From: Leptospiraceae bacterium
GTDB taxonomy: Bacteria; Spirochaetota; Leptospiria; Turneriellales; Turneriellaceae
Reading direction: 5' to 3'
NCBI GenBank assembly: GCA_025055765.1
Contig: JANWWS010000033.1
Span: 1 to 64,000, forward strand
DNA: 64,000 nucleotides
This document shows, one piece after another, positions 6,034-59,808 of the stretch. Position 1 is the first letter of the stretch. Each line of letters opens with the position of its first letter. The position numbers and the translations under genes were made by a program. The notes beneath the pieces are model-generated. The model was not told where the DNA came from. It saw only the letters and a program-made list of their open reading frames with translations, and did not search any database.

Positions 6034-7118
6034 GAGTAGCTCTTGTTTATCTTTTACTCTCAAGCTTTCTTTATGCCCAAAGCAAATTACGCCTGGCTGC
6101 TGCGGGGGATCTCATGTGCCATGACAGCCAACTTAACTCTGCCTGGCAGAGCCAAACACAGAGTTACCATTTTCATGGATCCTTCCAGCCGATAAAATCC
6201 ACACTTGAGCAAGCCGACCTCGCCCTCGCCAATTTAGAGACCACTTTACCGGGAAAAGATTTTGCAGGATATCCCCGCTTTGGCACGCCAGATAGCTTTG
6301 CCGAAGCTCTTTTTGGAGTAGGATTTCGCCTACTTGTGACTGCCAATAACCACAGTGTCGATCGGGGTATAGAGGGTTTACAGAGAACTCTTGACGTATT
6401 AGATAGAATAGGCTTTGCCCATACTGGAACTTTCCGACATGCAGAAGAAAGAGAAAAAAGCCCGTACTTAAGTTTAACCAAAAACGGCATAAAGGTAGCT
6501 TTTTTAAATTATAGTTACGGTACAAACGGATTACCTGCTCCTGCCGGAACAGTAAACTTTCCTTTAAGAAAAAAACAAATTAGCGAGGATATCGCCCGTG
6601 CCCGCCTTGATGAGAGCGACTTTATTATAGTTTATTATCATTTTGGCAATGAATATGAGAGACATCCTAATCCCACGCAAAGGGAGTATGCCTACTTCGC
6701 TCTCGATGAAGGGGCCCACGTGGTTCTAGGTAGTCATCCCCATGTAATTCAACCATACGAACTTTTGCAATGGGAAGACCGATATGGCGAAAAAAGAGAA
6801 AGACTCATTGCCTATAGCCTAGGCAACTTTATATCGGGACAAACGAAGCCCTATACAAGCACAGGACTCCTACTTTTTTTTACATTAGTAAAAGAAAGTA
6901 AAAAAATAGAAAATGTCCTACCCAAACTTGTTTATACTTTGCCCAGCGAAGGGCAATTTTATGTATATCCTCTCCCCGAGCTTTTTAGCACAAAAATTTT
7001 TCACCGTTTACCTCGAAAAAAGCAAAAGCAGATTAAGCGCGAATACCAAGAAATGAGTGTTCATGTTCAGTCATATGTCAATGGAAGATCGCTAAGAGAA
7101 AGATCCCTCCCGGAATAG
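6030..7118 (+). CDS. CapA-family putative metallophosphoesterase, exported
   Basis: 362 aa. The ATG at 6030 overlaps the preceding stop (ATGA) and gives a clean signal peptide, with cleavage after LLLSSFLYAQ. Family motifs are all visible: AAGDLMCHD at the start of the mature protein, LANLETTL, TANNHSVDRG, YYHFGNEYE and LGSHPHVIQP. These place it with PgsA/CapA proteins of the calcineurin-like fold. Family members take part in polyglutamate or capsule export, but many are simply periplasmic enzymes of unknown substrate. No pgsB/pgsC genes are nearby, so capsule synthesis is not supported here. The 3' end overlaps the convergent permease gene by 41 bases. Confidence 0.88.
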   Translation: MRVALVYLLLSSFLYAQSKLRLAAAGDLMCHDSQLNSAWQSQTQSYHFHGSFQPIKSTLEQADLALANLETTLPGKDFAGYPRFGTPDSFAEALFGVGFRLLVTANNHSVDRGIEGLQRTLDVLDRIGFAHTGTFRHAEEREKSPYLSLTKNGIKVAFLNYSYGTNGLPAPAGTVNFPLRKKQISEDIARARLDESDFIIVYYHFGNEYERHPNPTQREYAYFALDEGAHVVLGSHPHVIQPYELLQWEDRYGEKRERLIAYSLGNFISGQTKPYTSTGLLLFFTLVKESKKIENVLPKLVYTLPSEGQFYVYPLPELFSTKIFHRLPRKKQKQIKREYQEMSVHVQSYVNGRSLRERSLPE

Positions 7119-8307
7119 CAAAAACACTATAAAGAAATCCCATGCGAAGGTACTCACCAAAAGAAATAAAATAGCCTGCCTCCCTTGCTTTTTCTAGGAC
7201 AATGAGATTCGCGATGGATCCCAAAATTGTAAGATTACCTGCCAGGGTGCTTGTAAAGGCTAGAAGCTCCCAGAGAAATTCATTTTCCCCTGGCACAAAC
7301 TTTAAAAGCATAACTGCAGGCACATTGCTGACCATATTGGAAAGAGCAACTGTGAGCAGGGTCAATTGCCAACGATCCTGCAAATCCCACCCATGATAGC
7401 TAAGGTAGTCTATGGCATTTTTAAGGATCCCCTTTTTTTCTAAGGCTCCCGTTAATATAAAAAGAGATACAAAAAGTATAAGGAGCTTAAAATCAACAGT
7501 TGGATATAGTCTTTCAGCAGATGTTTTGCGAGATACCAAAACAGCTCCCGCTGCCACCAAGGCAGAGATATCTCTTGGCATGCCCACAAAAAAGGCAATT
7601 AACATAATGACAGTATAGACTAGTGTTTTACGGATAATATACTCATTTAAGGGGGGTAAAGTGGCGAGAGGTAGGGATGTCTTTAGATCTAACTTTTGGC
7701 TAAGCTCTGTGCGATAGAGAAAATAAAGTACAAGGTAGTTCACCCCGAGGGACCAAACTGTGGGTAAGGCCATATGTAAGCTGTAGCGGTAAAACGAAAG
7801 ATTGCCTGCTTCTCCAATAAGCACATTTTGGGGATTGCCAATAAGAGTAGCCACCCCACCACTGTTAGATCCTGTAGCTATAGCTAAAAGGTAAGGGATC
7901 GGGTTTTGTCCTGTTTTTCGCACAAGTTCTAAAATGACAGGTGTAAAGGCAACACACACGACGTCATTGGTGAACAAAGAAGCGGTAATACCACTTGATA
8001 TAAGAACGAGAGCAAGCAGAACTTTTGGTTTTTGACTCAAGTGTAATATGCGTAAGGCTAAATTGTCATAAAAGCCAGCTATATGAAGTTGGCCAGACAA
8101 AAGCATAAGAGAAAAAAGCAAAATTATGGTGGAATCATCAATAGCCTCCCTAGCTTCTTGTCTTGAAATAAAGCCCCCTGCTAAAAGAGCTATCGCCCCC
8201 ACAAGAGCTATACCTGTACGATCTAAGCGTACGAGTGGATAACGACCTAAGGCAAGGCCGACGTAGGCCAGGAGAAAGATAAGTAACACTCCCTCCTGGC
8301 TTGTCAT
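7078..8307 (-). CDS. SLC13/ArsB/NhaD-type anion or ion permease
   Basis: A 409-aa integral membrane protein with about 11 hydrophobic segments. It carries the ion-transporter-superfamily signatures 'LFTNDVVCVAFTP' and 'TGSNSGGVATLIGNPQNVLIG' in the first half and 'LSNMVSNVPAVMLLK' with 'GNLTILGSIANLIV' in the second. These duplicated TND and NxxGNP-like loops are typical of arsenite/citrate/dicarboxylate and Na+/H+ (NhaD) exchangers. The substrate cannot be assigned, and no arsR or arsC is adjacent. The start codon directly follows the stop codon of the P83/100 gene (TAAATG), so the two are co-transcribed. Confidence 0.82.
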   Translation of the reverse strand: MTSQEGVLLIFLLAYVGLALGRYPLVRLDRTGIALVGAIALLAGGFISRQEAREAIDDSTIILLFSLMLLSGQLHIAGFYDNLALRILHLSQKPKVLLALVLISSGITASLFTNDVVCVAFTPVILELVRKTGQNPIPYLLAIATGSNSGGVATLIGNPQNVLIGEAGNLSFYRYSLHMALPTVWSLGVNYLVLYFLYRTELSQKLDLKTSLPLATLPPLNEYIIRKTLVYTVIMLIAFFVGMPRDISALVAAGAVLVSRKTSAERLYPTVDFKLLILFVSLFILTGALEKKGILKNAIDYLSYHGWDLQDRWQLTLLTVALSNMVSNVPAVMLLKFVPGENEFLWELLAFTSTLAGNLTILGSIANLIVLEKAREAGYFISFGEYLRMGFLYSVFAIPGGIFLLAIFH

Positions 8308-9939
8308 TTACGGCTTAATACGCTCCACTAGAGAGAGATCAGCTTCTTTTAAAACAATTATGTTTTTTTGGGCATCATTGACATAGATCACATCTTCAAA
8401 GAAAGTCACAAAAGTATCTTCGTGAAGTTTTTCCTGGGAGCGCGCCAGCCGTTTTAGATTCTTGTCAAACTTTGCCAGGTAATATGCATTGCCTTCAAAT
8501 ACCACGGCATAAATGATATCATTGCGGATTTCCACAAAACTTCTCCAAAAGATGTTGTCATCACCCTGAACTTTTACCTGAAGGTTATCTTTGTCTAAAA
8601 GCACAAGCCGGTAGGCAGTTGCCTCAAAACCAGATTTGGCATTGGTTCCAATAACTACCACACCATCGGCAAAGACATCGTATTTTTGACCCGCAATTCC
8701 CTCATAAGGCGAGCGCACCAAGATCTTTCGGCTTTGGGGATCAATAATAAAAAGGTCGTTGCTACGCCGCCCTTCTGGTCCGTAACCTTTGCTACGCAGG
8801 TAGTATATTTTTCCGCCAAAAAGAGTTTTTTGCCGAAGCTCATCTTCTTTTTTCTTAAGTGCCGCTTCTTTTTCTTGAAGCTCTCGGTTGCGTCGCTCAA
8901 GCTCTTCGCGATATTTTTCCGGATCTTTTTTCATCTCCTGTTCTTTTTTGTCTTGGGCAAGCTGCTCCTTTTCTTGCTTTAACTCCTCCTGTCTTTTTTC
9001 TTGTTTTTCTTCTTTTTGCTTAATTTCTTCTTCTTTTTTAGCTTGTTTCTCTTCTTGTGCTTTGAGTGCTTGCTCTTCCTTCTTTAACTTTTGTTCTTCT
9101 TTCTTTACCTCTTCCTCTTTTTTCTTTTTTTCTTCAGGATCCTTTATCTTAGCCACCTCTTCCTTCTTTTTTTCCAATTCCTGTTTTTTTTGAGCTAATT
9201 CTTCTTTTTTCTCTGTTGTTTTCTTTTTTTCCGCCTCTAGTTCTTTCTTTTCTTTGCTTAAGGCTTGCTCTCGCTTCTCAACCTCTTTTTCTTTAAGCGC
9301 TAGCATTTTTTCTCTTTCCCCAATGCCCTTGTCTTCCTGCTTTCGCAGCTCTTCGATGACCTTTTGATCCCCCAGAGTAAAGGGATCAGCCCCTGTCTCG
9401 CTTAGAGGAATAAGCATGCGTGTCTTGCCTGGCCAATCCTTATAGCTGCGAGCAAGACCCAAATTTTCCTCTTTCACATAGCGCATCACTTCCTCTATGT
9501 AGCGCTGTGAGACATAACCTACATCCCCCCGGTAAACCGCATTGTAGTAGGTGGCAAAATTAGCTAAAGTTTGTGCATCTGCCTGAGAATAGCCAAAGCG
9601 TTTTCTGAGGTAACTAGCTAGAATAAGTCTGACATTGCGTATGTGGTCTACCCGCGCCTGGGGCTCAATGATGAAAATATCTGCAGAAAGTTTTTGTTTT
9701 TGGTTTGGATCATAAACACGCACTACCCGGTAGCGATTAAGATAGCGCCGCTCTCTTCCCGGCTCTGCCAGAACTTCCCCTATTTCCTGCACCTCACGTA
9801 CCGTGTCGCGTTGGCGGCTCGGTCCCGTATAGTTGATAAAGTCTATGGGCTGTGCCTTGCGCCGCAGCTCCTCTTCCACCACCTTTTGAGCATTAATGGC
9901 TACGGTTATGAAAAGACCATAGAAAATACATTTTGCCAT
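8308..9939 (-). CDS. P83/100-family exported coiled-coil protein
   Basis: 543 aa. The ATG at 9939 is chosen because GGAG lies 7 bases upstream; the in-frame ATG at 9945 has only 1 base of spacing. A signal peptide ends near FITVAINAQ. The N-terminal domain (about 20-185) includes YTGPSRQRDTV and a helical part. Residues ~205-370 are almost wholly Lys/Glu/Gln heptads, a long charged coiled coil. The C-terminal ~170 residues look like a beta-propeller-like domain with repeated 'IYYLRSKG / DLFIID / VVVIGTNA' strands. This is the architecture of the spirochaetal P83/100 antigen family known from Borrelia. Function is unknown. It shares an operon with the permease. Confidence 0.8.
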   Translation of the reverse strand: MAKCIFYGLFITVAINAQKVVEEELRRKAQPIDFINYTGPSRQRDTVREVQEIGEVLAEPGRERRYLNRYRVVRVYDPNQKQKLSADIFIIEPQARVDHIRNVRLILASYLRKRFGYSQADAQTLANFATYYNAVYRGDVGYVSQRYIEEVMRYVKEENLGLARSYKDWPGKTRMLIPLSETGADPFTLGDQKVIEELRKQEDKGIGEREKMLALKEKEVEKREQALSKEKKELEAEKKKTTEKKEELAQKKQELEKKKEEVAKIKDPEEKKKKEEEVKKEEQKLKKEEQALKAQEEKQAKKEEEIKQKEEKQEKRQEELKQEKEQLAQDKKEQEMKKDPEKYREELERRNRELQEKEAALKKKEDELRQKTLFGGKIYYLRSKGYGPEGRRSNDLFIIDPQSRKILVRSPYEGIAGQKYDVFADGVVVIGTNAKSGFEATAYRLVLLDKDNLQVKVQGDDNIFWRSFVEIRNDIIYAVVFEGNAYYLAKFDKNLKRLARSQEKLHEDTFVTFFEDVIYVNDAQKNIIVLKEADLSLVERIKP

Positions 9940-9988
9940 GCGCATACTCCATTATCGGTAAGCCTCTCAAAAAAGCAGCTAATTTTAT

Positions 9989-10017
9989 TTGCCAGCTTGT
10001 CTGTTCTTAGCTAATGC
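9989..10017 (+). promoter_or_regulatory. candidate leaderless promoter for the hemerythrin gene
   Basis: TTGCCA (9989-9994), 17-base spacer, TAATGC (10012-10017), then 6 bases to the ATG at 10024. No ribosome binding site is present. The -10 is a weak match, but the spacing is the same as at gspG. Confidence 0.4.
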
Positions 10018-10023
10018 ATTATT

Positions 10024-11109
10024 ATGCCAATAGAAATTACTACGGAGTTAATAAAAAAGCTTAGCCAGTGGTGGGAAGAGACAGAACTTACTTTAGCCAT
10101 ACCTTATATCGACAGTCAGCATCTATGGCTGTGTGCTCTCATGTTTCAGGGAGAAAACGCCCTCAAGCTCACCAACCAGGAGCTTTTTCAAAAAACATTT
10201 TCCCAGATTTTGAGATACCTCTATCTTTATGCAGAACGCCACTTTAAGGCAGAAGAAGCCATACTGCAGCATTTTTCGTACCCAGCCAGAGAAGAACACC
10301 GCCGCCGCCACGCCAGCTTTGTGCAATATTTGGAGAGATTTCAAAAATATGATTTCACCCCACAATCTGCAGAAACTCTGCTTCACTTTCTGAAAGCCTG
10401 GCTGGTCACCCATGTAAAAAAGGAAGATTTTCACTATGCTGCCTTTTTTGCCCGTAGACAAGCCGATGTGCTTGCATTTTTGGAAGAATTTGCCTCACAC
10501 ACAGAAAATCACTTGCTAGCTGAAGAAAAGATGCTCTTCGAAAAGATTTTAGCAAAAAAGATGTTAATCTATAATAGAGAGAGCGTTGTCACAGACACAA
10601 CAAGGGAGATATACCGAAACCTTCGACTTGAAACTGGTATTCCTATTGTCGACATCCAACATCTTTGGCTCGTTAAGCTGATGGTAAAATTAGAAATAAT
10701 GCTGAAACAAAAAAAGGAACAAACCCCTGGCGAGACGATAGAAATTCTAAAAGAAATAGTGCGTTATACGCGTGATCACTTTATGGCCGAAGAAAACCTT
10801 ATGCGCATTATGGATTACGGACCCAGGGACATCCACCACCAAAAGCATGCCAGCTTTATGAAAAGCATGCAAACTAAATATAAAAACCATCTCATATCAG
10901 ACAAACAACTTGCGCAAAATCTTCTTCATGATTTACGAGACTGGCTATACCATCATATTGCAACAGAAGATAAACTTTTGGGAGCTTACAGCCGCTCAAG
11001 GCCTACGATAGCCATAATGGCCTGCAAGAAACTTCTATCCGAGGGCCGTATTTCCTTGCGAGCTGAGCAAATTAGCTTTTATAAAGCTATTCGGCAAAAG
11101 ACCTCCTAG
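10024..11109 (+). CDS. tandem bacteriohemerythrin protein
   Basis: 361 aa with two hemerythrin domains, each with the full set of diiron ligand motifs. Domain 1 (~20-150): DSQHLW, HFKAEEAI, HRRRH, WLVTHVKKED. Domain 2 (~205-325): DIQHLW, HFMAEENLM, HHQKH, WLYHHIATED. Hemerythrins bind O2 (or NO) at a non-haem diiron centre and serve as oxygen carriers, scavengers or sensors. The linker contains ENHLLAEEKMLF, which resembles a second-helix motif (HxxxE) and may be the remnant of a third unit. There is no signal peptide or membrane segment, so it is cytoplasmic, and no output domain is attached. It converges with the recombinase gene, overlapping 4 bases. Confidence 0.9.
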   Translation: MPIEITTELIKKLSQWWEETELTLAIPYIDSQHLWLCALMFQGENALKLTNQELFQKTFSQILRYLYLYAERHFKAEEAILQHFSYPAREEHRRRHASFVQYLERFQKYDFTPQSAETLLHFLKAWLVTHVKKEDFHYAAFFARRQADVLAFLEEFASHTENHLLAEEKMLFEKILAKKMLIYNRESVVTDTTREIYRNLRLETGIPIVDIQHLWLVKLMVKLEIMLKQKKEQTPGETIEILKEIVRYTRDHFMAEENLMRIMDYGPRDIHHQKHASFMKSMQTKYKNHLISDKQLAQNLLHDLRDWLYHHIATEDKLLGAYSRSRPTIAIMACKKLLSEGRISLRAEQISFYKAIRQKTS

Positions 11110-11996
11110 GCTCGCGGGTGGTATTTTTTGTGAGTTTTCTCAAGATCGGAGCGCACAAGGTGGGTATATATTTGCGTTGTGCTAATATCCAGATGCCCAA
11201 GAAGTTCCTGCACCGCTCGGAGATCAGCATTGTTTTGGAGTAGATGTGTGGCAAAACTGTGGCGCAGTGTGTGCGGGGTAATTTTCTTTTTAATTTGAGC
11301 CCGTCCAATGTAGCGCTTCAAGAGTCTCCATGCAGATTTGCGGTTTAGCGCACCCCCTTTCTTTGAAATAAACACATAGGGAGAGGGTTTTGTGGCAAGC
11401 GCAGGCCGCGAATGCGACAGATACTTTTGCAAGAGTTCGTAGGCTACATCCCCGAAGGGAACTAGCCTCTCCCTGCCTCCTTTACCTATTATGCGTAGCT
11501 GCATTTGGTCTAAATTAACATCCTGCATTTTTAACTGGCAGGCTTCTGAGATACGCAAACCTGCTGAATACATAAGCTCAAAAAGAGTCTTATCTCGCAA
11601 CTCTAGAATATCCGACTCATTAAAAACCATAAAGAGCTTTTTGATTTCCTCCTGGGTTAAATAGTCAGGAAGATGGCGTTCCACCTTAGGGCTTTCAACA
11701 TCGGTCATCGGATTTTGGGTAATGACTTTGTTTTGCTCCAGGTAATTGTAAAACTGGCGCAGGGAGGCAATTACCCTAGCACGAGTACGGCTTGAGAGGT
11801 TGCGGCGACTTTCTTCCCGTAAGAATTCCAAAATGTCATTGCGCGTGAGGGAAATTAACGAGCGGGAATGGCTCTGGGCAAAGCGGTTCAATTTCGTGAG
11901 ATCAGAAAGATAGGAAAAAATACTGTTTTCCGAAAGCCCTTTTTCAACCAAAAGGTAGTTTTCAAAATCTTTCAAATAGTTTTTTTTGGCAGCCAC
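11106..11996 (-). CDS. XerC/XerD-type tyrosine recombinase
   Basis: 296 aa, the normal size for Xer recombinases that resolve chromosome dimers at dif. An N-terminal SAM-like core-binding domain (~1-95) precedes the catalytic domain with all active-site residues: Arg in GLRISEA, Lys in GKGGRER, HTLRH, then GHLDISTTQIYTH with the Tyr nucleophile. The start is a GTG preceded by CAGGAG. Nothing around it suggests an integron or phage integrase: no att repeats, no excisionase. A housekeeping XerD/XerC role is therefore likely. Which of the two it is cannot be decided from sequence by eye. Confidence 0.93.
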   Translation of the reverse strand: MAAKKNYLKDFENYLLVEKGLSENSIFSYLSDLTKLNRFAQSHSRSLISLTRNDILEFLREESRRNLSSRTRARVIASLRQFYNYLEQNKVITQNPMTDVESPKVERHLPDYLTQEEIKKLFMVFNESDILELRDKTLFELMYSAGLRISEACQLKMQDVNLDQMQLRIIGKGGRERLVPFGDVAYELLQKYLSHSRPALATKPSPYVFISKKGGALNRKSAWRLLKRYIGRAQIKKKITPHTLRHSFATHLLQNNADLRAVQELLGHLDISTTQIYTHLVRSDLEKTHKKYHPRA

Positions 11997-12062
11997 ACCC
12001 TGCTCCTGTCGTGAGACTTATGCTATTCATCGACGGAGCAAAATGGGCTTTTAAGAACTTTT

Positions 12063-13235
12063 TTATTTTAGAAGTCCTGCTTCCTTTATTATATATGCGC
12101 CTATTTCATTTAGTTGTATTTGGCTCGTACCCTCGTAAATTGTTAGAATTTTGGCATCTCGATACATCTTTTCAATAGGATAGTCCTTTGTAAAACCATA
12201 ACCCCCATGCAATTGTAGCGCTTGGTTCGCCACAAAAACAGCTGTTTCTGAGGCATAGTATTTAGCTATAGCTGAAAATTTCGCTGTTTCGGGATGTCCA
12301 AACTCTGCATAACGGGCAGCCCGATAAGCTAGAAGTCGCGAAGCCTCAATACGGGTTAGCATTTCCGCAAGCATATGCTGTACCGCTTGGAAGTTAATGA
12401 TATGGCGACCAAACTGCTGCCTCTGTCTTGTATATTTGAGAGCCTCTTTGTAGGCTCCTGTGGCAAGACCCACCGCACTTGCTGCCACTGCGGGACGAGA
12501 GGCATTTAAAGTCAAGAGAGCATGAATAAAGCCCTTGTTGGGTTTTAAACCTACCAAATTTTCCTCTGGGACCTCGACATCCTCCAAAATGACCTGCCTC
12601 GTATGAGAACAGCGTATGCCCATTTTGTTTTCTAGCTTACCAAAAGAGAGTCCCTTCGTACCTTTTTCCACAATAAAGCAAGACATACCCCTTGGACCCT
12701 TGGCCTTGTCAGTTAGGGCAAAAATAGTATAGACATCGGCAACACCGGCATTCGAAATCCATTGCTTAACGCCATTAAGGATATAGCGATCCCCCCGTTT
12801 TTCCGCAACGGTGGAGAGGTTTGGAACATCCGATCCGGCGTTGGGCTCGCTAAGAGCAAAGGCGCCTATTTTCTCCCCAGAGGCAAAGCTAGGCAGATAT
12901 TTGCGTTTTTGCTCTTCCGTGCCACCCAACTCAATAGGTAGAGCGCCCAACTTCGTGGCGGCAAAGGCAGTACTAACACCCAGGCAATATTCACTTATGG
13001 TTTCTGCCAGAAGAGCATTGATAAAGGGACGCAGTCCCAAACCCCCATATTCAACGGGATACATAGCAGCTGGTATTTGGGCTTCCTTGAATTTTTCTAA
13101 AATTTTATAAGGATACTCTTCTTTTTCGTCAAGTTCAGCCCGCTGGGGGACCACATGTTCTTCACAGATGCGGCGGGTAAGCTCTAGTACCTGCCTTTCT
13201 TCTTCACGAATAGTAAAATTCATTATTTCATCCAT
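12063..13235 (-). CDS. acyl-CoA dehydrogenase (short-chain type)
   Basis: 390 aa, FAD-dependent alpha,beta-dehydrogenation of acyl-CoA. Family signatures are complete: 'FALSEPNAGSDVPNLSTVA' (flavin binding), 'QWISNAGVADVY', and the C-terminal 'LQLHGGYGFTKDYPIEKMYRD' with the catalytic base Glu in IYEGTSQIQ. That Glu position is typical of short/medium-chain (butyryl-type) enzymes. No electron-transfer flavoprotein genes are adjacent. Two in-frame ATGs are possible (13235 and 13223). The first is preferred because a promoter-like -35/-10 pair ends 6 bases upstream of it. It is separated from selD by a 49-base gap and appears to be its own unit. Confidence 0.93.
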   Translation of the reverse strand: MDEIMNFTIREEERQVLELTRRICEEHVVPQRAELDEKEEYPYKILEKFKEAQIPAAMYPVEYGGLGLRPFINALLAETISEYCLGVSTAFAATKLGALPIELGGTEEQKRKYLPSFASGEKIGAFALSEPNAGSDVPNLSTVAEKRGDRYILNGVKQWISNAGVADVYTIFALTDKAKGPRGMSCFIVEKGTKGLSFGKLENKMGIRCSHTRQVILEDVEVPEENLVGLKPNKGFIHALLTLNASRPAVAASAVGLATGAYKEALKYTRQRQQFGRHIINFQAVQHMLAEMLTRIEASRLLAYRAARYAEFGHPETAKFSAIAKYYASETAVFVANQALQLHGGYGFTKDYPIEKMYRDAKILTIYEGTSQIQLNEIGAYIIKEAGLLK

Positions 13236-45452: not shown

Positions 45453-45460
45453 CTTTTATA

Positions 45461-45488
45461 TTTACAACTCGGCAAGCTGTAGTAGAAC
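45461..45488 (+). promoter_or_regulatory. leaderless promoter of the PhnD-like/SpoIIE operon
   Basis: TTTACA (45461-45466), 16 bases, TAGAAC (45483-45488), 5 bases, GTG at 45494. No ribosome binding site. Confidence 0.55.
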
Positions 45489-45493
45489 GAGCC

Positions 45494-46414
45494 GTGCGCT
45501 ACCTTCAACTTGCCCTTGTATTTTGGCTTTTGTGGGGATGCACAAGTGAAGTCTTAATTTTAGAAGAAGAAAAAAATGCATCTGCAGAAGAAGAAACGCT
45601 ACTAAAAAAAGGTCCGGCAGAGGAAAGCAGTTTTCTACTTGCCTTTGCTCCTTTTGCCGAAAGTGAAAAAATCCGAAAGATGTACCATAATTTCGCACAA
45701 TATTTAGCCGAAAATCTGGGCCTCAAAGTAAGGATTATTGTGGCAGAAGACTATGAGTCTCTCCTAGAAAATCTAGCCAATGGAACTTTTCAGGCTGCCT
45801 TTCTTTCTCCCGTGAATTACGTAAAACTCATGCAGAGAAAGGATAAGGAGATCTATTATGGGGCTTCCGCGGAAATTAGGGGACAAAGCCAATATTATGG
45901 GCTCATTATTACTCATCGGACGAGTGGAGTGACAAAACTTGTGGCATTGCGTAACCGGGAATTTGGCTTTGTGGATCGCAACTCAGCATCTGGATTTCTC
46001 TTTCCCTACAGCACTTTATTAAAAAATGGTCTTGATCCAGAAAAGCACTTTCGACGCATCTATTTCTTAGGTACCCATTCCCGTATCTTAGAGGCTTTAA
46101 AATCAGGTCGTATTGCGGGAGGAGCTACCTATGATGGGCGCCTTGCTGAGCTCTCCCCAGAAGAAAGAAAAAACTATCTTGTCTTAGCTAGGACTGACCC
46201 CATCCCCTACGACACCTTTGTCGTCTCAAAAACAGGCTCATTTTATCTAGAAAAAGTCCGGCGGCTATTACTTGCTATTGACCCAAATACCCGTACACGC
46301 AACGGTAACTTAGTATTCGATCCTCAAACCGGCATAGGACTCACTGGTTTTCGACTAAAGGAACGTGATTTCTATAATAAAATTGCCATTATGCTCCAAA
46401 CTGCCCGTCTCTAA
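45494..46414 (+). CDS. PhnD-type substrate-binding lipoprotein
   Basis: 306 aa. Lipoprotein signal 'LALVFWLLWGC', followed by an acidic linker (EEEKNASAEEE). The rest matches the phosphate/phosphonate-binding PhnD fold: 'LLAFAPFAESEKIRKMYHNFAQYLAENLGLKV', 'DYESLLENLANGTFQAAFLSPVNYVKLM', 'FGFVDRNSASGFLFPYS', 'GGATYDGRL' and 'PYDTFVV'. No ABC permease or ATPase follows. Instead the next gene, 3 bases on, encodes a HAMP-SpoIIE receptor, so the binding protein probably works as a sensor input rather than in transport. Confidence 0.87.
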   Translation: MRYLQLALVFWLLWGCTSEVLILEEEKNASAEEETLLKKGPAEESSFLLAFAPFAESEKIRKMYHNFAQYLAENLGLKVRIIVAEDYESLLENLANGTFQAAFLSPVNYVKLMQRKDKEIYYGASAEIRGQSQYYGLIITHRTSGVTKLVALRNREFGFVDRNSASGFLFPYSTLLKNGLDPEKHFRRIYFLGTHSRILEALKSGRIAGGATYDGRLAELSPEERKNYLVLARTDPIPYDTFVVSKTGSFYLEKVRRLLLAIDPNTRTRNGNLVFDPQTGIGLTGFRLKERDFYNKIAIMLQTARL

Positions 46415-46417
46415 GCC

Positions 46418-48844
46418 ATGCTAAAATTGCCAATACAGACATGGGTCATCAAAGTAAAACAAGCGCTTGCCTCACTAGAGGAATTGGCGCTTATGCCAAA
46501 ATTTCTTGTCGACTACCTGCGCGACCAAGGCGTTGATAAGAAAGTTCGCTTTCTGACCCTCAGTCTTGCCTTACCTATCTTAACCCTGCTCTTAATTGTA
46601 TTAGCTCTTTTTATATACCGCCTCTACGACTCACTCGAAAGCAAACTACGTTCAACAAGGGATGCTATCTACAATAACCTACAAGAATATGGAAGACTTG
46701 CCCGAGAGTACGCCTCTCTTTTAGCCACAACACCATTAGTCCAAAGAGAACTCTTGTCGAAAATCCCCAATGCGGGACCCCTCATTCACATAGGCCTCGG
46801 ACTTATTCGCAATTTTGGTATAAACGAAGTTACCTTTATAGAAGCTACAGGCATTGTGATAGCACGCTCACATGAACCAAACAACTTTGGGGATAGCTTA
46901 CACCACCATAGGGAAGTTGCTCTCGCTCTTGAAGGAAAATCCACCGTTTTTTTCTCCACGGAAAATCACCCCGCCAAGCTTATAAGCTGTGTACCAGTAA
47001 GCTACGATCAAGAAATCTTGGGGGCTATTTGTGTTGCCTATCTCCTAGATTTAACTTTCGCCAAAAGACTTTACCAACTCACGGGTGGTTTTGTCTTTTT
47101 TGCGACTGGTGAAGCCACTCTTTTCTCCTCTCTAGGCAAACTAAAGAAGGGGCAGCTTTCTTTATCTACGGACAGTTTTTCTAAAAAGGCTTTGCTCTTA
47201 CATAGAGATGGCAAAGAAACAACCTATTATTTAGAATTTTTAGCCACGAAACTTCCGTATGAACGAAGCAGTGAAAAACCTCTTTTCATATACTGTGCTC
47301 TCGACATGAGCCGAGAAAGGGCCTGGCTTAACCTAATGGTGTTTTTCATGCTTATTTCAGCTACAGCTATTGTTGGCACAGCCCTTTTAATTTCATTAAA
47401 AGTAGCCAATAACCTTACGCGGGCCATTGCTAAAATATCCATGGGTATAAGTCGTATTGCCTCAGGCCAACTTGACACTAGGCTTCCCGTTGAATCCCAA
47501 GATGAACTAGGTCAGCTTGCCAAGTCCGTAAATACCATGGCCCAGGAACTGAAACAAAGTTACGAGCAACTTGAGGAAGCTAAGAAAAAAATTGAAGCCC
47601 ATGCAGAAATTTTGGAACAAAAAGTCGAAGAACGCACCCGGGAGCTTAAAGCTTCCCTTGAAGAAATAAGAGCCCTAAAAGAAAAACAAGACGCTGATTA
47701 TTACCTAACCTCAGCTTTAGCTATCCCTTTATCGGGAATAAAGGGGGAAAGCGAGGTTTTTCAAATTGAATATCGAACTGAGCAAAAAAAGAAGTTCCAA
47801 TACCGTCGCTTCCAGCGGGAAATAGGGGGAGACCTCACAGCAGCTCGCTCCATTGAACTTAGGGGAAAACCGTACATCGCCCTCATTAACGCAGACGCTA
47901 TGGGGAAATCAATCCAAGGAGCAGGAGGAGCCCTAGTGCTAGGCGCCGCCTTTGAAGCTCTTTGCCATCGATCTGCCCATGGCCTAAGAGATGAACGTTC
48001 CCCCGAACGCTGGATTAAAGAAAGCCTAATAGAGCTGCATAAACTCTTCTTAGGTTTTGATGGAGCCATGATGGCTTCTTGTTGCCTTATCCTGGCCGAG
48101 GAGGAAAACGGTGCCATATATTGGAGCAATGCCGAGCACCCCTTTCCTGTTTTATATCGGGATGGAAAAGCTACTTATCTTGAAAAAGAGACATATCTTC
48201 GCAAATTAGGGATGGTCGGTGTACCTTTCGAGCCTCGAATAAATGTCTTACAATTGAGACCAAAGGATGTGGTCCTATTTGGCACCGATGGGCGGGAAGA
48301 TATCTTGCTTTGGAGCGGAAAATTAGATAGAGAAATAAACGAGGACCCATTGCTTTTTCTGCGAATTACGGAAAAGGCGGAGGGCCAGCTTCAGAGAATT
48401 TTTGAAATTTTGCCCAATTTTGGAGAAATCATAGACGATATTTCTCTTTTAGCACTCTCTCTAAAAGAAACGAATAGTTTTTATCAACAAACAGATCTCA
48501 AACTTTACCATGAAATGAAAAAACTCATAGATGGTAAAGCTTACCTTGATTATTGTGAAAAATTTAAGGAAAATCGGGAAAACTGGCAAAAACAGCCTGA
48601 GCTATGGCGTCTTTATGTTAAAGCCTTGGCTTTAGACAAACGCCTTGAGGAAGCAGCACAGGAAGCCTATGCTTACGTCCTTGCCTTCCCCACAGACAAC
48701 CGTATGCTCTATGAAGCTACAAGACTCTTAGCTAGGACTGGCCAAGAGGCGCTTGCCGCTTATTTAAGAGAAAAACTTCTTTGCCGGGAACCTTATAATC
48801 CCGAGTACCGTAAACTAGAATTACTATTGAGTAGCCATGGATGA
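46418..48844 (+). CDS. HAMP-SpoIIE membrane phosphatase (sensor)
   Basis: 808 aa. TM1 ~46-68; an extracytoplasmic sensor region ~70-300 (single-Cache-like, with 'FIEATGIVIARSHEPNNFGDSLHHH'); TM2 ~306-328; HAMP ~330-385 ('QLDTRLPVESQDELGQLAKSVN'); coiled coil ~385-430; PP2C-type SpoIIE phosphatase ~450-690 with 'EIGGDLTAARS', 'LINADAMGKSIQGAGG' and 'VVLFGTDGRED'; then ~110 C-terminal helical residues with TPR-like spacing. Such proteins usually dephosphorylate anti-anti-sigma factors. The pairing with a lipoprotein binding protein suggests that a small ligand, perhaps a phosph(on)ate, controls the phosphatase. Confidence 0.88.
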   Translation: MLKLPIQTWVIKVKQALASLEELALMPKFLVDYLRDQGVDKKVRFLTLSLALPILTLLLIVLALFIYRLYDSLESKLRSTRDAIYNNLQEYGRLAREYASLLATTPLVQRELLSKIPNAGPLIHIGLGLIRNFGINEVTFIEATGIVIARSHEPNNFGDSLHHHREVALALEGKSTVFFSTENHPAKLISCVPVSYDQEILGAICVAYLLDLTFAKRLYQLTGGFVFFATGEATLFSSLGKLKKGQLSLSTDSFSKKALLLHRDGKETTYYLEFLATKLPYERSSEKPLFIYCALDMSRERAWLNLMVFFMLISATAIVGTALLISLKVANNLTRAIAKISMGISRIASGQLDTRLPVESQDELGQLAKSVNTMAQELKQSYEQLEEAKKKIEAHAEILEQKVEERTRELKASLEEIRALKEKQDADYYLTSALAIPLSGIKGESEVFQIEYRTEQKKKFQYRRFQREIGGDLTAARSIELRGKPYIALINADAMGKSIQGAGGALVLGAAFEALCHRSAHGLRDERSPERWIKESLIELHKLFLGFDGAMMASCCLILAEEENGAIYWSNAEHPFPVLYRDGKATYLEKETYLRKLGMVGVPFEPRINVLQLRPKDVVLFGTDGREDILLWSGKLDREINEDPLLFLRITEKAEGQLQRIFEILPNFGEIIDDISLLALSLKETNSFYQQTDLKLYHEMKKLIDGKAYLDYCEKFKENRENWQKQPELWRLYVKALALDKRLEEAAQEAYAYVLAFPTDNRMLYEATRLLARTGQEALAAYLREKLLCREPYNPEYRKLELLLSSHG

Positions 48845-49349
48845 AAACATACTCTTTAAGCATCTCCAGCCAAACGCAGATAAGGGAAATTAGTCCCTAG
48901 GCCACTTGAGAACAAATGGTTTTTGCTAATTACAGCTTGGCATATAGCGATAGAAAAGAGGTTATATAGAAAAAGTCATGCCTCCTTCGCTATTTAGAAG
49001 TTCAAAAAAAGAACCCAAGAGCCAGCTTTTGACACATCGTAGCAGCGCAAGCTAGAGCAGTTTGTGAAGTCGAGGCTATAATTACCCTCTGCTTATTTAA
49101 GGGAATTTTGTAGGAGAGACAAAGCACACAACGCATGTCGATACCTATATTTTTAGGCCAGACGAAAATCATGCTTCATAGGCCGAGGGATGTTTCGCTT
49201 ATCATAGCATTTTTGTCTTCTTACTTTGCCTCAAAACACTTTGGGTGATATTTATTCTATCATACCCTTTCGTAACTCATCTCCCCACTTTAAAATACAT
49301 CTTTATTTTTTCCTCTTTACAAACATTAGGCTTCTCTCATGGGGGGACT
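48845..49349 (+). other. 505-base stretch without an intact gene
   Basis: No tRNA, known RNA or convincing gene. Stops are frequent on the plus strand. On the minus strand there is a 44-codon frame (49002-49136) and, in another frame below it, a ~39-codon open stretch (around 48850-48965). Together these look like a decayed small gene, but it could not be identified with confidence. The right-hand end must hold the promoter of the oxidoreductase gene: TTTACA (49316-49321) lies 34 bases before its ATG, but no good -10 follows. Confidence 0.6.
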
Positions 49350-52300
49350 ATGTACCACACTGTGGATGCCAACGAAGCCGTCGCTGACATTGCCTATCGT
49401 ATCAGTGAGATAATTGCGATTTATCCTATCACACCTGCCTCTCCCATGGCTGAACATGCGGACAGTTGGGCTACTGATAAGAGGCCTAACATTTGGGGGT
49501 CAGTTCCCGAAATTGTGGAGATGCAGTCTGAAGGAGGTGCAATTGCTTGCGTGCACGGAGCTTTACAGGCAGGGGCAATCACGACCACCTTTACCGCCTC
49601 GCAGGGACTTCTGCTTATGTTGCCCTCCCTCTTTAAAATAGCAGGTCAGCTCTTCCCCCTGTGCATGCATGTGGCTGCAAGGACGGTGGCCTCCCAAGCT
49701 TTGTCTATCTTTGCAGATCTCTCGGACGTTATAGCTGTTCGTCAGTCGGGCTTTGTTTTGTTGTGCAGTTCCATTCCCAAGAAGCTCATGACCTTGCGGC
49801 CATAGGGCATGCGTTGGCTTTTGAGGCAAGTTTAGGAGTCTTGCATTTTTTTGATGGTTTTCGAACCTCCCATGAGATAAGAAAAATAGCTCATTTACGT
49901 GACGAAGACATACAAAGGCTATTGTCGCCTCAAGCAATTCTGAATTTCCGCAAGAGGGCACTAAACCCAGAAAGGCCAGTGATCAGAGGAACAGCGCAAA
50001 ATCCTGATGTATTTTTTCAAGCTACGGAGGCTTCGGAAATCTATTACCAAAACTTACCAAAAATAGCAATGGGGATCTTAGAGCGGTTCTATGAAATTAC
50101 TGGTAGGAGATATCACCTTTATGAGTATTTTGGTCATCCGGAAGCTGAGGATGTCGTGGTATTGATGGGTTCCGCGGCAGATTGTGCAGAGGAGACTGTA
50201 GATTATCTTGTAAGTAAAGAAAAAGCCAAAGTGGGTATAGTGAAGGTGCGACTTTTTCGTCCTTTTCTAGCGGATGTTTTCCTTTCTGCACTTCCCCCTA
50301 CCGTAAAGCAGCTGTGCATTTTAGACAGAACAAAGGAAAAAGGGTCTGCTGCTGAACCTCTTTACTCTGAGATAGCGGCCGCTATGATGCTTAACTATGC
50401 AGCAGGCAAAATTAAGGAAATTTTACCTATATACAGTGGGCGCTATGGCCTGGGCTCAAAGGAATTCAATCCCGCGATGGTAAGGGCAATATTTGAAAAC
50501 ATGAAGTCTGCAACCAAAAAAGTGCGTTTCACTGTGGGTATTGTAGATGTGTCAGACACAGCTCTTTAAATTACAACGAAAGTTTCCGCTTCCCCATAGA
50601 AGGGATGTGGTCTGGTCTCTTTTTTGGTCTGGGATCCGATGGCACGATCTCAGCTAATAAAATGAGCTTAAAAATCATAGGGGAGCGAACCTCTCTTTAC
50701 ACTCAGGGTTATTTCGAATACGATAGCAAAAAATCCGGTTCTATGACCGTTTCCCATCTGCGAATCTGCGATAAGCCCATACGGTCCACCTACCGCATTG
50801 TTGAGGCAGATTTTATCGCTGTACATGATGAAAAATTCTTTCACACAAGGGATGTCCTTAGCGCTGCCAAAGAGGGTGCGATCCTCCTTGTCAACACGGT
50901 GCGCGAAAAAGAAAAATTTTTCTCAGCTCTTCCCCCCTCGGTTCAAGACACAATTTTCAAGATAAAATTAAAGGTTTTTCTTATTAATGCTTATGCCGTT
51001 GCCGCTAGCATGGGTTTGGGCAGACGCATCAATACCATCATGCAGGTTTGTTTTTTTAAATTGACCCCCTTTCTGACCATCGATGAGGCGCTGGAGGCTT
51101 TGAAGTCTCACATAGAACAAACCTGGGGTCGACGAGGACGGGAAATAGTTATGCGCAATGTGGCAGGCTTAGAGCTAGCCCTGGCAGCACTTGAGCAACT
51201 GGATTATTCACAGATATCTCGAGAGCAAACATCTGGGAAATTGGCAACTACGGGAGAAAACGACTTTGTATCTAAGGTGACGATCCCTCTTCTTAGAGGA
51301 ATGGGGGATAGCTTACCTGTGAGTACATTCCCTCCTGATGGTTCTTGGCCAACAGGAACAGCAAAATTAGAGAAAAGGCAGCTTGCCACCCAAATCCCTG
51401 TGTGGCAAAGTGAGCTCTGCGTGCAGTGTAACTTTTGTGTCATGATTTGTCCTCATGCCGCCATCCGCAGCAAAATTGTAGCCCCCAGCGAAATCAAAGA
51501 TCCCCCAGAAAATTTTAGTTCTTTACCTGTTCAATTTTCTGAAGAACTGGCCAGCTACCATTTTGTTTTGGCGGTAGCTCCTGAGGATTGTACCGGTTGT
51601 GGGCTCTGCATTGAGGTTTGTCCCGCGCGCGACCGCAAGATGCCCAAACGCAAAGCCCTAGTTCCTCAGGATTTCCATACTACTCTAGGCCCAGCCAAGG
51701 CCGAGTGGGAATATTTTTTAAGCCTACCCAGCGTACCTGTCAGGGAAATCCCACCAGATCGCCGCACTCTTGTCTTAAGGGAACCCCTGTTTGAATTTCC
51801 GGGTGCTTGTGCAGGCTGTGGAGAAACACCATATATCCGCCTTTTAACCCAACTCTTTGGGGATCATTTAGTGATAGCCAATGCTACCGGCTGCTCCTCT
51901 ATCTATGGAGCCAATCTACCTACCACTCCATACACCAAGAACAACGAAGGCCAGGGACCGGCATGGGCCAATTCTCTTTTTGAAGACAATGCGGAGTTTG
52001 GTTTTGGGATAAGTTTGGCCCTTGCCCAAAAAGAAAGAGAGGCCTTTGAAAAGCTCAGACTTTTGAAAGATAAAATACCCCCCAGCCTTTGGCATAAAGT
52101 TCATGAAAAGGGAGTGGGGGATCTGTGGGCATGGCAGAGGCGCAAAGCGATCCAAGAGCTAGCTTTATATTTGAGAGACATAGGGGAGGAGAGTGATTTT
52201 TTGAACTCTCTTTTACCGAAATCCGTGTGGATTATCGGTGGAGATGGTTGGGCTTATGACATTGGCTATGGTGGTCTTGACCATGTCTTAGCATCTCGGC

Positions 52301-52878
52301 AAAAGATAAACATCTTGGTCTTAGACACGGAAGTTTATTCTAATACAGGGGGGCAAGCTTCTAAGGCAACTCCGTTGGGAGCCGCGGCTAAGTTTGCGAG
52401 TTCAGGAAAAAGGACGCGTAAAAAAGACTTAGGTCTTTTGGCTATGAGCTACGGTCATGTTTATGTTGCGCAAATTGCTCTACAGGCTAACAGCAAACAT
52501 GCCGTAGAATGTTTTCTTGAGGCCGCAAGCTATCCCGGTCCCTCTCTTTTGCTCGCTCATTGCCCTTGTATCGCGCATGGCTATGATTTAAGGTTATCAC
52601 CTCAACAGCAAAAAAGAGCAATTGCCAGTGGCATGTGGCCTTTGTATCGCTATAATCCCCTTCTTGTGGAAAAGGGGGAGACTCCGCTTATCTTAGACTC
52701 TGGCAAACCAACCTTGGATGTAGCTCAATATATGGAAAACGAAAGCCGCTTTACCATGGTGCAGTTAAGAGATCCAGAAGAGTATGAAAAACTAATCGAG
52801 ATGGCTCGTTTAGCTGTAAAACAACGCTATGCTTATTACGAACAACTTTCTCATATCCACTTGCCGAAAGAGAGCTAG
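49350..52878 (+). pseudogene. nifJ: pyruvate:ferredoxin (flavodoxin) oxidoreductase, two frameshifts
   Basis: A full-length PFOR (about 1176 codons if repaired) lies in three successive frames. Part 1 (49350 to ~49780): 'IYPITPASPMAEHADSWA', domain I. Part 2 (~49780 to ~50556): from QEAHDLAAIGHA through 'HFFDGFRTSHE' and 'FRPF'. Part 3 (~50557-52878): 'SSLNYNESF', 'FGLGSDGTISANK', ferredoxin motifs CVQCNFCVMICP and CTGCGLCIEVCP, thiamine-diphosphate domain CAGCGETPY and 'GDGWAYDIGYGGLDH'. Each junction is explained by loss of one base, near 49770-49782 and near 50549-50557. GGGGGG precedes the ATG. Everything outside the two breaks is well conserved, so the decay is recent or the shifts are sequencing errors. 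Confidence 0.88.
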
Positions 52879-57918: not shown

Positions 57919-59808
57919 ATGATGTACAAAGCAATAATAGTGGGGATGTTACTCCTCTCCTTCAAGAGTTGGGCCACTGAGCTAAAGATCTGGGTTTTGG
58001 ACCAAGAGATAGAAAGCCTCGAGAAGCTAGACGGGCTTATCCCGTACGACGTGGTGCCCGGCAGCTTTGAGCGAGCAGTAGGAAAACAAAAATTTGTCTA
58101 TGTACGGTACTCGATCCCCAAGCAGATCGTAAGTCACGGGGTTCTTTTTTCTTTCAACCAACCCTGCCGCTTTTTTACCCAGCAGCGTTTTCTTGGTGGT
58201 CCTAGTCACTGGGATCAAAGAAAAAACGAGCCTCGTCTTGAGTCTTCAGCTGTACGTTTTTTACCAGAAGAGGCCGGGCAATTTCTCTACATCGTTTGTA
58301 AGACTGAATTTCGCATCTTAAGATTCTTTGCTTTTGAGGCGGGAGACCTAGAGAACCTACTTTTAGATAAATACCGCCAGGCCATCCTGCTTCTTTTAAT
58401 TCATGGCCTTTATTTTATCTTTGGGGTTTATCTCATTATCTTGGCTTTTTTTCCTACCCAAAATCGCCTATTTTTTGTCTATGCCGGCCTAAGTATGATT
58501 TTTTTAGCTCTATTCCTATATCTTAGAAGAAACGTTATGCTCTATTATATCTTTCCCTATCCTTATTTGTGGGGCTACCTTTTCTATGTGGTTATGTTTT
58601 TAGCGGTTATTTCTATTGTGGGCCTTATTGGCCTTTTGTGCCAACACATACCCCGCAAGGTCTTTTTTTACCAACAAGGCTTTTTCTTCTTGTATCTTTT
58701 GGTGTTGCTTGCTCTTTCCTTTTCTCATTTAGTTCACCCGGAAAATATCATTCACTACTTTTACTACACCTTCATAGTCTCAATTGTGGTATCGATAGTA
58801 GGCCTCACATACGAGATGAAAAAAAAACCCGTTCCCGAACTCTTGGTTCTTATGGTAGCTCTGGGCATTCTAGCTATAGTCGCCCTTGTCGATATTATAT
58901 TATACTTAACGACTATAGATACAAGTCTTGCCCGCCTGCGATGGGCCATTAATCTTTTGGGATTAGCAATTGCCATCCTTATATCTGTCTGGTATATCCG
59001 AAATTTAAGATTAAGCCAGCGTAATTTGCGCCTACTTGAAAAAGAGGTAGCCAATCGGACCCGTCGTTTACAAGAATCTCTGCAAGTCATAGAAAAAGGT
59101 CTTGAGGTTGCCCGAGAAATACAGCATAAACTCCTGCCTCCGGAAGCGATACGAGAAAAATTTCCTGGTGACCTTAGTTTTTGGTACGAACCTCGTTTGT
59201 CTGTAGGCGGGGATATCTTTCAACTACACGAGCATAACTCTATCTGGCGCATTTTTTTAGCAGATACCACAGGTCATGATATCTCCTCTTCGCTTATTAC
59301 CATGCTTCTTATCGTGGAATATGAAAATCTACAGCGAGATTACATTTCCCCAGGGAGGGTTTTACAGGAACTCAACAGAATTTTTATTCAAAAATATGCA
59401 AGGCTTCGTTCTTATTTTACATGTTTAGTGCTCGATATCGACTTCGCGCACAAGAAACTCACTTATGCCATGGGGGGCCATCCCGAACAGCTCATGGTGA
59501 AAAAGCTAGAAAATAAACTTTTTTTAAACACAGGGCCTATCTTAGGTTTTCGGCTGCAGGCCACTTGGTCGGAAAGTAGCTATCACTTTTCTCCAGGCGA
59601 TGTCCTATGCTTGTTTTCCGACGGGCTAATTGAAGAAACCGAGAAAGGCAAAATCCCCCTAGATATAGCAGACTTGGAGAAAATCCTACGAGAGAACCTA
59701 GCTGAAAAAGCCCAACTCATGGTGGAGCGCATCCGCAATGCCTTTTTACAAAAATTAGGGAAACAATCCAAAAGTGATGATATAACCCTGCTTGTCATCA
59801 AGTTTTAG
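57919..59808 (+). CDS. 7TMR-DISM receptor fused to SpoIIE phosphatase
   Basis: 629 aa. Signal peptide (IIVGMLLLSFKSWA), a periplasmic beta domain ~23-150, seven membrane helices ~155-365 (7TMR-DISM type), a coiled coil ~368-400 ('NLRLLEKEVANRTRRLQESL'), and a C-terminal SpoIIE/PP2C phosphatase ~400-629: 'AREIQHKLLPPEA', 'SVGGDIFQLHE', 'IFLADTTGHDISSSLITMLL', 'YAMGGHPEQL', 'VLCLFSDGLIEETE' and 'SDDITLLVI'. The metal-binding Asp positions are intact. It is likely a receptor that dephosphorylates an anti-anti-sigma factor in response to an envelope signal. A second ATG follows the first directly. Confidence 0.9.
   Translation: MMYKAIIVGMLLLSFKSWATELKIWVLDQEIESLEKLDGLIPYDVVPGSFERAVGKQKFVYVRYSIPKQIVSHGVLFSFNQPCRFFTQQRFLGGPSHWDQRKNEPRLESSAVRFLPEEAGQFLYIVCKTEFRILRFFAFEAGDLENLLLDKYRQAILLLLIHGLYFIFGVYLIILAFFPTQNRLFFVYAGLSMIFLALFLYLRRNVMLYYIFPYPYLWGYLFYVVMFLAVISIVGLIGLLCQHIPRKVFFYQQGFFFLYLLVLLALSFSHLVHPENIIHYFYYTFIVSIVVSIVGLTYEMKKKPVPELLVLMVALGILAIVALVDIILYLTTIDTSLARLRWAINLLGLAIAILISVWYIRNLRLSQRNLRLLEKEVANRTRRLQESLQVIEKGLEVAREIQHKLLPPEAIREKFPGDLSFWYEPRLSVGGDIFQLHEHNSIWRIFLADTTGHDISSSLITMLLIVEYENLQRDYISPGRVLQELNRIFIQKYARLRSYFTCLVLDIDFAHKKLTYAMGGHPEQLMVKKLENKLFLNTGPILGFRLQATWSESSYHFSPGDVLCLFSDGLIEETEKGKIPLDIADLEKILRENLAEKAQLMVERIRNAFLQKLGKQSKSDDITLLVIKF

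Follow-up and report, generated by a model that had tools for sequence, protein, structure and literature searches.

Known Binding-Protein-Activated Receptors and the Gene Pair

Bacterial receptors that are activated by a solute-binding protein include chemoreceptors, sensor kinases, diguanylate cyclases/phosphodiesterases and Ser/Thr kinases (Ortega et al., 2022, PMC9602780). In LuxP, TorT and other systems of this kind the binding protein presents its ligand to a transmembrane receptor, and the same is proposed here for two genes in a 64,000-nucleotide (nt) stretch of a Leptospiraceae bacterium assigned to the Turneriellaceae (the window; contig JANWWS010000033.1, positions 1 to 64,000). The first gene (45494..46414, plus strand, GTG start, 306 amino acids (aa); list of open reading frames (ORFs) and Pfam) encodes a PhnD/PtxB-type solute-binding lipoprotein. 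The second (46418..48844, plus strand, ATG start, 808 aa; Pfam and hydropathy) encodes a receptor with two transmembrane (TM) segments and a SpoIIE/PP2C phosphatase output. With a probability of about 0.72, we consider the pair to be a solute-binding-protein-coupled receptor whose PP2C phosphatase output acts on STAS proteins. PP2C/SpoIIE phosphatases are absent from the list of receptor types in the available part of Ortega et al. (PMC9602780). A literature search for binding proteins combined with SpoIIE/PP2C phosphatases found no case, with subscription literature largely outside its coverage.

Among described systems, the binding proteins AioX (of AioX-AioS-AioR) and ArrX resemble that of the pair in fold and pocket type, in serving signaling and not transport, and in having the receptor gene adjacent (PMC5908839). 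However, their partner is a histidine kinase with a response regulator, whereas a dCache-HAMP-SpoIIE phosphatase takes this place here, and the binding protein of the pair is, unlike AioX and ArrX, a predicted lipoprotein. The importer binding proteins PhnD, PtxB and HtxB have the same fold and the same phosphoryl-oxygen ligands (Y, Y, S, S, H) as the lipoprotein, but they serve ATP-binding cassette (ABC) importers, while the lipoprotein is found without a PhnE permease or a nearby ATPase. On the output side, the receptor matches in fold SiaA of Pseudomonas aeruginosa, a PP2C phosphatase acting on the STAS protein SiaC, which is phosphorylated by the HATPase-type kinase SiaB (PMC9239204). The available part of that account mentions no binding protein for SiaABCD, and none of the genes adjacent to the pair in the window was recognized as coding for a kinase, a STAS protein or a cyclase. 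Against the SiaA profile NF038263 the receptor scores 38.9 bits (cut-off 700), and this in the HAMP region only. Both the parts and the coupling principle are known, and what is new is an output outside the list of Ortega et al., as far as the accessible text of that list extends.

Conservation of the Gene Pair

The two ORFs lie on the same strand with three bases between them. The initial annotation had described them as a PhnD-type lipoprotein gene followed after three bases by a gene for a two-TM HAMP-SpoIIE receptor, and the coordinates, Pfam matches and hydropathy agree with this. The genome containing the window (2.51 Mb, 50 contigs, 99.4% complete) was considered within a family sample of 13 genomes of Turneriella relatives, in which a lipoprotein profile search at 1e-15 gave 10 strong loci (402 to 537 bits) in eight genomes. 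At 10/10 of these loci a homologous receptor gene lies directly 3' on the same strand. As the adjacency recurs at every one of them it is more than chance, and the pair is conserved across genomes, though just 8 of the 13 have it. The spacing of the two genes is +3, -4 or -8 nt in the 9/9 loci measured, figures which depend on the receptor starts that we chose. Seven of the receptors are complete and carry SpoIIE, while three are cut or broken: the two of G011 are truncated by contig ends at about 465 aa, so that most of the SpoIIE domain is missing, and that of G003 is broken or cut near a contig end, with only part of the ectodomain visible. The SpoIIE profile found no SpoIIE domain in these three.

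The genes flanking the pair vary between genera, being lpxC in the window and others in G001, G006, G008 and G012 (ORF lists, by eye), which indicates that the two genes remained adjacent as the genes around them changed. G006 has the pair in duplicate, as does G011. The identity matrices of lipoproteins and receptors are closely parallel (r = 0.99; 0/5000 permutations as high), and at the level of sequence this shows common descent as a unit; contact between the two proteins is not proven by that alone. In the initial annotation the two genes were proposed to encode a receptor that is assisted by the lipoprotein and has a phosphatase as its output. This proposal is well supported by the conservation together with the lack of a dedicated permease described below.

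The Lipoprotein and its Predicted Binding Pocket

The lipoprotein matches PF12974 (E = 1.3e-46, Pfam scan) and TIGR01098 (123.6 bits, over the cut-off of 112.05), and lies far under the cut-off of the PhnD equivalog TIGR03431 (108 bits, cut-off 261.1). Its N-terminus consists of a hydrophobic stretch and a lipid-attachment cysteine, Cys16 (codon 45539-45541), which is invariant in 10/10 rows of the family alignment; the Trp at position -2 of the lipobox is unusual. The structure model has a predicted local distance difference test score (pLDDT) of 87 and a predicted template modeling score (pTM) of 0.78. Its nearest solved structures are PtxB (with methylphosphonate or phosphite) and ArrX, and AioX is also among the nearest.

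Pocket residues were assigned from profile alignments and from the pocket lists available in published work (PMC5700983, PMC5908839), with residue numbers counted by hand and matching the paper. Lipoprotein residues Y87, Y134, S164, S166 and H195 align with Y49, Y94, S124, S126 and H155 of Pseudomonas stutzeri PtxB, and D214 falls at the place of AioX D210 (via the ArrX alignment). The cap position, by alignment the place of tyrosine Y203 in PtxB, is held by the acidic D240, like D205 of Escherichia coli PhnD (via the P. aeruginosa homologue) and unlike the tyrosine of a phosphite cap. Residues Y87, Y134, S164, S166 and D214 are conserved in 10/10 rows of the family alignment, and H195 and D240 in 9/10. 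At the place of the arsenite-binding Cys106 of AioX stands Ser105 (via the PhnD and ArrX alignments), which is Ser in 9/10 rows and Pro in one.

The ligands of solved relatives include phosphite, hypophosphite, phosphate, phosphonates, arsenate, arsenite and glycerol phosphate, among others (structure search; PMC5700983, PMC5908839). The pocket of the lipoprotein would fit a small oxyanion of tetrahedral shape, or an organic compound derived from one, and its predicted residues speak against a phosphite-type cap and against arsenite as the ligand. The ligand had initially been called phosphonate-like; the conserved oxyanion pocket agrees with the general type, while phosphonate itself is a family label only, the ligands of the relatives being varied.

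The Receptor

The receptor is built in the order TM segment, dCache, TM segment, HAMP, coiled coil, SpoIIE/PP2C phosphatase and TPR-like tail, all on the plus strand. The phosphatase domain as matched by Pfam spans aa 486-682 (47873..48463; SpoIIE, PF07228, 4.1e-25, 89.3 bits against a cut-off of 25). In the phosphatase part of the structure model, Foldseek matched RssB, the RsbU part of Rv1364c, SpoIIE and SiaA (SiaA-PP2C, 6k4e). The predicted metal aspartates D472, D493, D624 and D673/D674 are invariant in 7/7 complete receptors. D472 lies just before the Pfam-matched stretch, and from its GGD motif we take it to be a metal aspartate. The other positions, D493, D624 and D673/D674, were assigned by motif comparison with D628, D746 and D795 of SpoIIE (PMC5468089). 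D493 is followed by Ala; the corresponding residue of SpoIIE, Gly629, is described as acting via its backbone carbonyl (PMC5468089).

The first TM segment (aa 48-66, 46559..46615) and the second (aa 307-325, 47336..47392), both from hydropathy, enclose an extracytoplasmic dCache domain of about aa 71-300 (46628..47317), which is supported by Foldseek matches and by Pfam dCache_3 at aa 71-229 (5.2e-6, 26.7 bits, just above the cut-off of 25.7). A HAMP domain (aa 329-380, 47402..47557; Pfam, 8e-15, and model) follows and continues into a helical linker to about aa 434. In the model of the receptor (pLDDT 75, pTM 0.39) a long external helix and mixed alpha/beta subdomains precede the second TM segment, and the sensor domains of DctB and Tlp3 are among the Foldseek matches of the ectodomain.

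The modeled ectodomain is thus complete and matches ligand-binding sensor domains, and transmembrane receptors typically bind their signals directly (PMC9602780). Both points would suit a receptor which senses the ligand by its own dCache domain, accompanied by a co-regulated lipoprotein that makes no contact with it and has an accessory role such as scavenging or buffering the same ligand. However, this would not account for the one-to-one adjacency in 10/10 loci despite changing neighbors; a scavenged ligand would also have no PhnE-type importer, and relatives of the lipoprotein adjoin receptors of other types as well (see below). We regard direct sensing with an accessory lipoprotein as unlikely.

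The C-terminal tail (aa 687-806, 48476..48835) is formed by TPR-like helical hairpins according to the model and the family alignment. Of the seven complete receptors, only those of the window's genome and of G001 have this tail (about 110 aa). No Pfam TPR match was obtained in the window receptor, and the tails of four other scanned SpoIIE receptors of the same genome do have Pfam TPR matches.

Transport or Signaling: Relatives Outside the Family

The initial annotation had noted that the lipoprotein gene has no ABC transporter partner, and this was confirmed. No ABC-ATPase-like ORF was found at the 10 family loci (0/10 in the available sequence, up to 2.5 kb, the window pair included), and no PhnE permease exceeded the profile cut-off in the 13 family genomes (0/13), the window's own among them. 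Matches to the PhnE profile below the cut-off are present in 12/13 family genomes and are probably other permeases. A dedicated phosphonate importer was rejected as a candidate, with no PhnE over cut-off and no ABC-ATPase-like ORF near the pair. PF12974 is found at three places in the window's genome, namely the lipoprotein of the pair, a 1182-aa PF12974-PAS-PAS-GGDEF-EAL fusion (in L049) and a sub-cut-off match in a 399-aa ORF. The neighbors of this last ORF resemble an ABC ATPase and a permease (ORF list, by eye), and on that reading by eye it would be the own binding protein of another importer. At L049 (G000:C1:95000-114000; 5153-9581, minus strand), an NMT1-type binding-protein gene precedes the gene of the PF12974 fusion, and the two ORFs overlap.

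A draw of 392 genomes from the phylum gave 53 matches at 1e-15 in 43 genomes. Ten of these matches are the family pairs, and the other 43 fall in 42 loci, all of which were examined, some being cut by contig ends. A SpoIIE profile built from 20 SpoIIE matches of the window's genome found no SpoIIE ORF at these loci (0/42), with the family loci as positive control (6/6). An ABC-ATPase-like ORF, recognized by motif, lies within 2.5 kb at 24/42 loci. At 11/42 a histidine-kinase, cyclic di-GMP (c-di-GMP), chemotaxis or PAS receptor adjoins: the neighbor is a histidine kinase in L150, L174, L178 and L123, a GGDEF-EAL protein in L152, L157, L159 and L122, a chemotaxis receptor in L121, a protein with a PAS domain in L155 and, in L151, an sCache-HAMP protein cut before its output domain. 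The binding domain of L187 forms one protein with a receiver-containing kinase, and six loci (L154, L158, L163, L180, L181 and L188) have no ABC-ATPase-like ORF within 2.5 kb and no neighbor that was identified. In L155 (G059:C179) a single ORF (2063-3736, minus strand) carries two tandem PF12974 domains and is followed by the 360-aa PAS-domain protein.

Within the family, G002, in which the pair is missing, encodes two proteins distantly related to the lipoprotein; a HAMP-GGDEF-EAL receptor adjoins the first (L046) and a histidine kinase the second (L048). In addition to its pair, G003 has an L046-like relative (L047), whose neighbor is an equally long ORF, compared by length only. An alignment-based pattern scan of genome contigs returned 19 loci, seven of which (L087-L093) are contigs of family genomes and were not recounted. 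Among the 12 further loci (L094-L105), a GGDEF receptor gene stands directly beside the lipoprotein gene in L096 and L097, which are from other phyla or unplaced bacteria. No receptor partner was recognized at the other ten from ORF lists and a Pfam scan of the L100 binding protein, and no SpoIIE match was found in the 12 (0/12).

A lipoprotein tree was built from 36 chosen rows, including all 10 family rows and 11 of the 24 ABC-type loci. In it, a single clade (support 98/93) holds the SpoIIE-coupled lipoproteins and is sister to L150/L151 (99/97). The ABC-coupled rows (11/11) fall elsewhere, grouping with weak support together with two kinase-coupled rows. This bears on the explanation that the lipoprotein is an orphan transport protein, serving an ABC importer encoded elsewhere and merely co-transcribed with the receptor. 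The ABC-ATPase-like ORFs at 24/42 non-family loci and the sub-cut-off PhnE matches in 12/13 family genomes, the latter probably other permeases, could be cited in its favor. Nevertheless, with PhnE over cut-off in 0/13 family genomes and every ABC-coupled row of the tree, for the 11 of 24 such loci used, lying outside the SpoIIE-coupled clade, we consider a transport role very unlikely.

Pathway Components and Proposed Mechanism

The window's genome has 23 SpoIIE matches, 19 STAS matches and 8 HATPase_c_2 matches (6/8 over cut-off); one of the 23 is a 245-aa ORF resembling an ordinary soluble PP2C. To our knowledge, the signals sensed by such SpoIIE phosphatases are mostly unknown. In G006 (L040) and G011 (L038) a HATPase_c_2/PAS kinase-like gene, with no HisKA match, directly precedes the pair, and at these two loci genes for kinase, binding protein and receptor would stand side by side. 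Hydropathy predicts two TM segments in the G006 kinase-like protein. Its full-length relatives are those of G011 (82%) and G004 (42%) only; 12/13 family genomes have some match, which elsewhere, including the window's genome, covers the cytoplasmic or catalytic part. In G004, a genome without the pair, the kinase relative lies at 5328-6941 (plus strand) of L213 (G004:C77:29000-41000). A 625-aa SpoIIE-domain ORF (8381-10258, minus strand) is found 1.4 kb from it, on the opposite strand and with one gene between.

Control of a sigma factor, as first suggested for the pair, received no support from the genome. No SigB/F/G-type sigma factor (TIGR02980) was found over the cut-off in the window's genome, the best match being 134 bits against 234.35, a negative result with which other sigma types remain compatible. 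STAS switches can also act elsewhere, for instance on the diguanylate cyclase SiaD (PMC9239204).

In the mechanism that we infer, the lipoprotein, anchored in the periplasm-facing membrane, would close on a small oxyanion-type ligand and then dock on the dCache domain of the receptor encoded by the adjacent gene. From there the signal would run through the HAMP domain and the helical linker, reset the dimeric SpoIIE/PP2C domain and switch the phosphatase on. The phosphatase would then dephosphorylate one or more STAS proteins kept phosphorylated by RsbW-like (HATPase_c_2) kinases, and the partners of those STAS proteins would be switched in turn. The sign of this response could be the opposite, which is a variant of the proposal and compatible with its other parts: the empty lipoprotein may hold the phosphatase on (or off) until the ligand releases it, making the pair a starvation sensor. 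The sequence fixes no sign, and a binding protein with negative control of signaling is mentioned for chitooligosaccharides in Vibrio (PMC10667598). On the other hand, for the characterized relative AioX the arsenite-bound form is regarded as the one that acts on the kinase (PMC5908839), and we consider the opposite sign to be the less probable of the two.

Several observations weigh against a coupled receptor of this kind. The lipoprotein was not found at 1e-15 in 5/13 family genomes (G002, G004, G005, G009 and G010), three of which are at least 93% complete, and the identity matrices of the two proteins also mirror the species tree. In G003 the lipoprotein has V for H195 and E for D240. The receptor model has a pTM of only 0.39, with the HAMP domain and linker poorly modeled, and a full dCache domain could bind its ligand unaided. 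Next to the window pair no STAS or kinase gene was recognized, and just 2/10 loci have the kinase-like gene adjacent to the pair. Finally, the ectodomains of the window receptor and of the receptor of the sister lipoprotein show no similarity by BLASTP or by hhalign, the second profile having 2 rows, so that conservation of the docking surfaces does not extend over this step. From these sequences, the lipoprotein lineage seems to have swapped its whole partner and not just the output domain.

Other Binding-Protein/SpoIIE Pairs in the Genome

A second arrangement of this type is present in the window's genome at L200 (G000:C49:15000-25000; 4158-6994, minus strand), where the gene of an SBP_bac_1 lipoprotein (5.1e-23) overlaps a SpoIIE receptor gene by 16 nt. 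The receptor is of the commoner SpoIIE type (9.6e-49) and a TPR gene comes after it. At 1e-20 the SBP_bac_1 binding protein was found in 3/13 family genomes (the window's, G001 and G005) belonging to three genera, and a homologous SpoIIE receptor follows it in 3/3 (59% and 64% identity). Since two unrelated binding-protein families thus stand beside SpoIIE receptors in one genome, the case for binding proteins feeding SpoIIE receptors here is strengthened. At L053 (G000:C15:1-16000; 5733-12459, plus strand) a SpoIIE-TPR receptor gene overlaps the next gene by 4 nt; the latter encodes an ABC_sub_bind (PF04392) stretch with TPRs, and the gene of a TonB-type receptor then follows. This is possibly a third binding-protein-linked phosphatase.

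Genomic Context of the Pair

The pair is separated from lpxC by a gap of 41 nt (45453..45493, plus strand), in which a promoter scan found no sigma-70-like site. Promoter-like sites in the region number 7, compared with a shuffle mean of 8.3, and are no commoner than chance. The initial annotation had placed both genes behind one promoter, for which the scan offers no backing; the pair may possibly be transcribed by read-through from lpxC. Downstream, the gene of a pyruvate:ferredoxin oxidoreductase (window 49245-52878) seemingly extends over three reading frames, with shifts near 49.8 and 50.6 kb as judged by eye, representing either errors in the assembly or a disrupted gene. About 9 kb downstream of the pair (window 57919-59808) comes a further SpoIIE phosphatase gene that scores higher in Pfam.

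Significance

We give about even odds to a broader proposal in three parts. PP2C phosphatases would be an output class of binding-protein-coupled receptors outside the list of Ortega et al.; PF12974 and SBP_bac_1 proteins, and perhaps PF04392, would each be SpoIIE-coupled in this family; and in two Turneriella-type loci kinase, lipoprotein and phosphatase would make up one switch of STAS phosphorylation set by a ligand. If this is true, phosphatases would join the receptor types reported as driven by binding proteins. A binding protein matched one-to-one to its receptor would offer a soluble handle with which to find the signal of a phosphatase receptor. The occurrence of one lipoprotein type next to ABC importers as well as next to receptors of the phosphatase, kinase, c-di-GMP and chemotaxis kinds may furthermore be regarded as a natural experiment in moves between transport and signaling.

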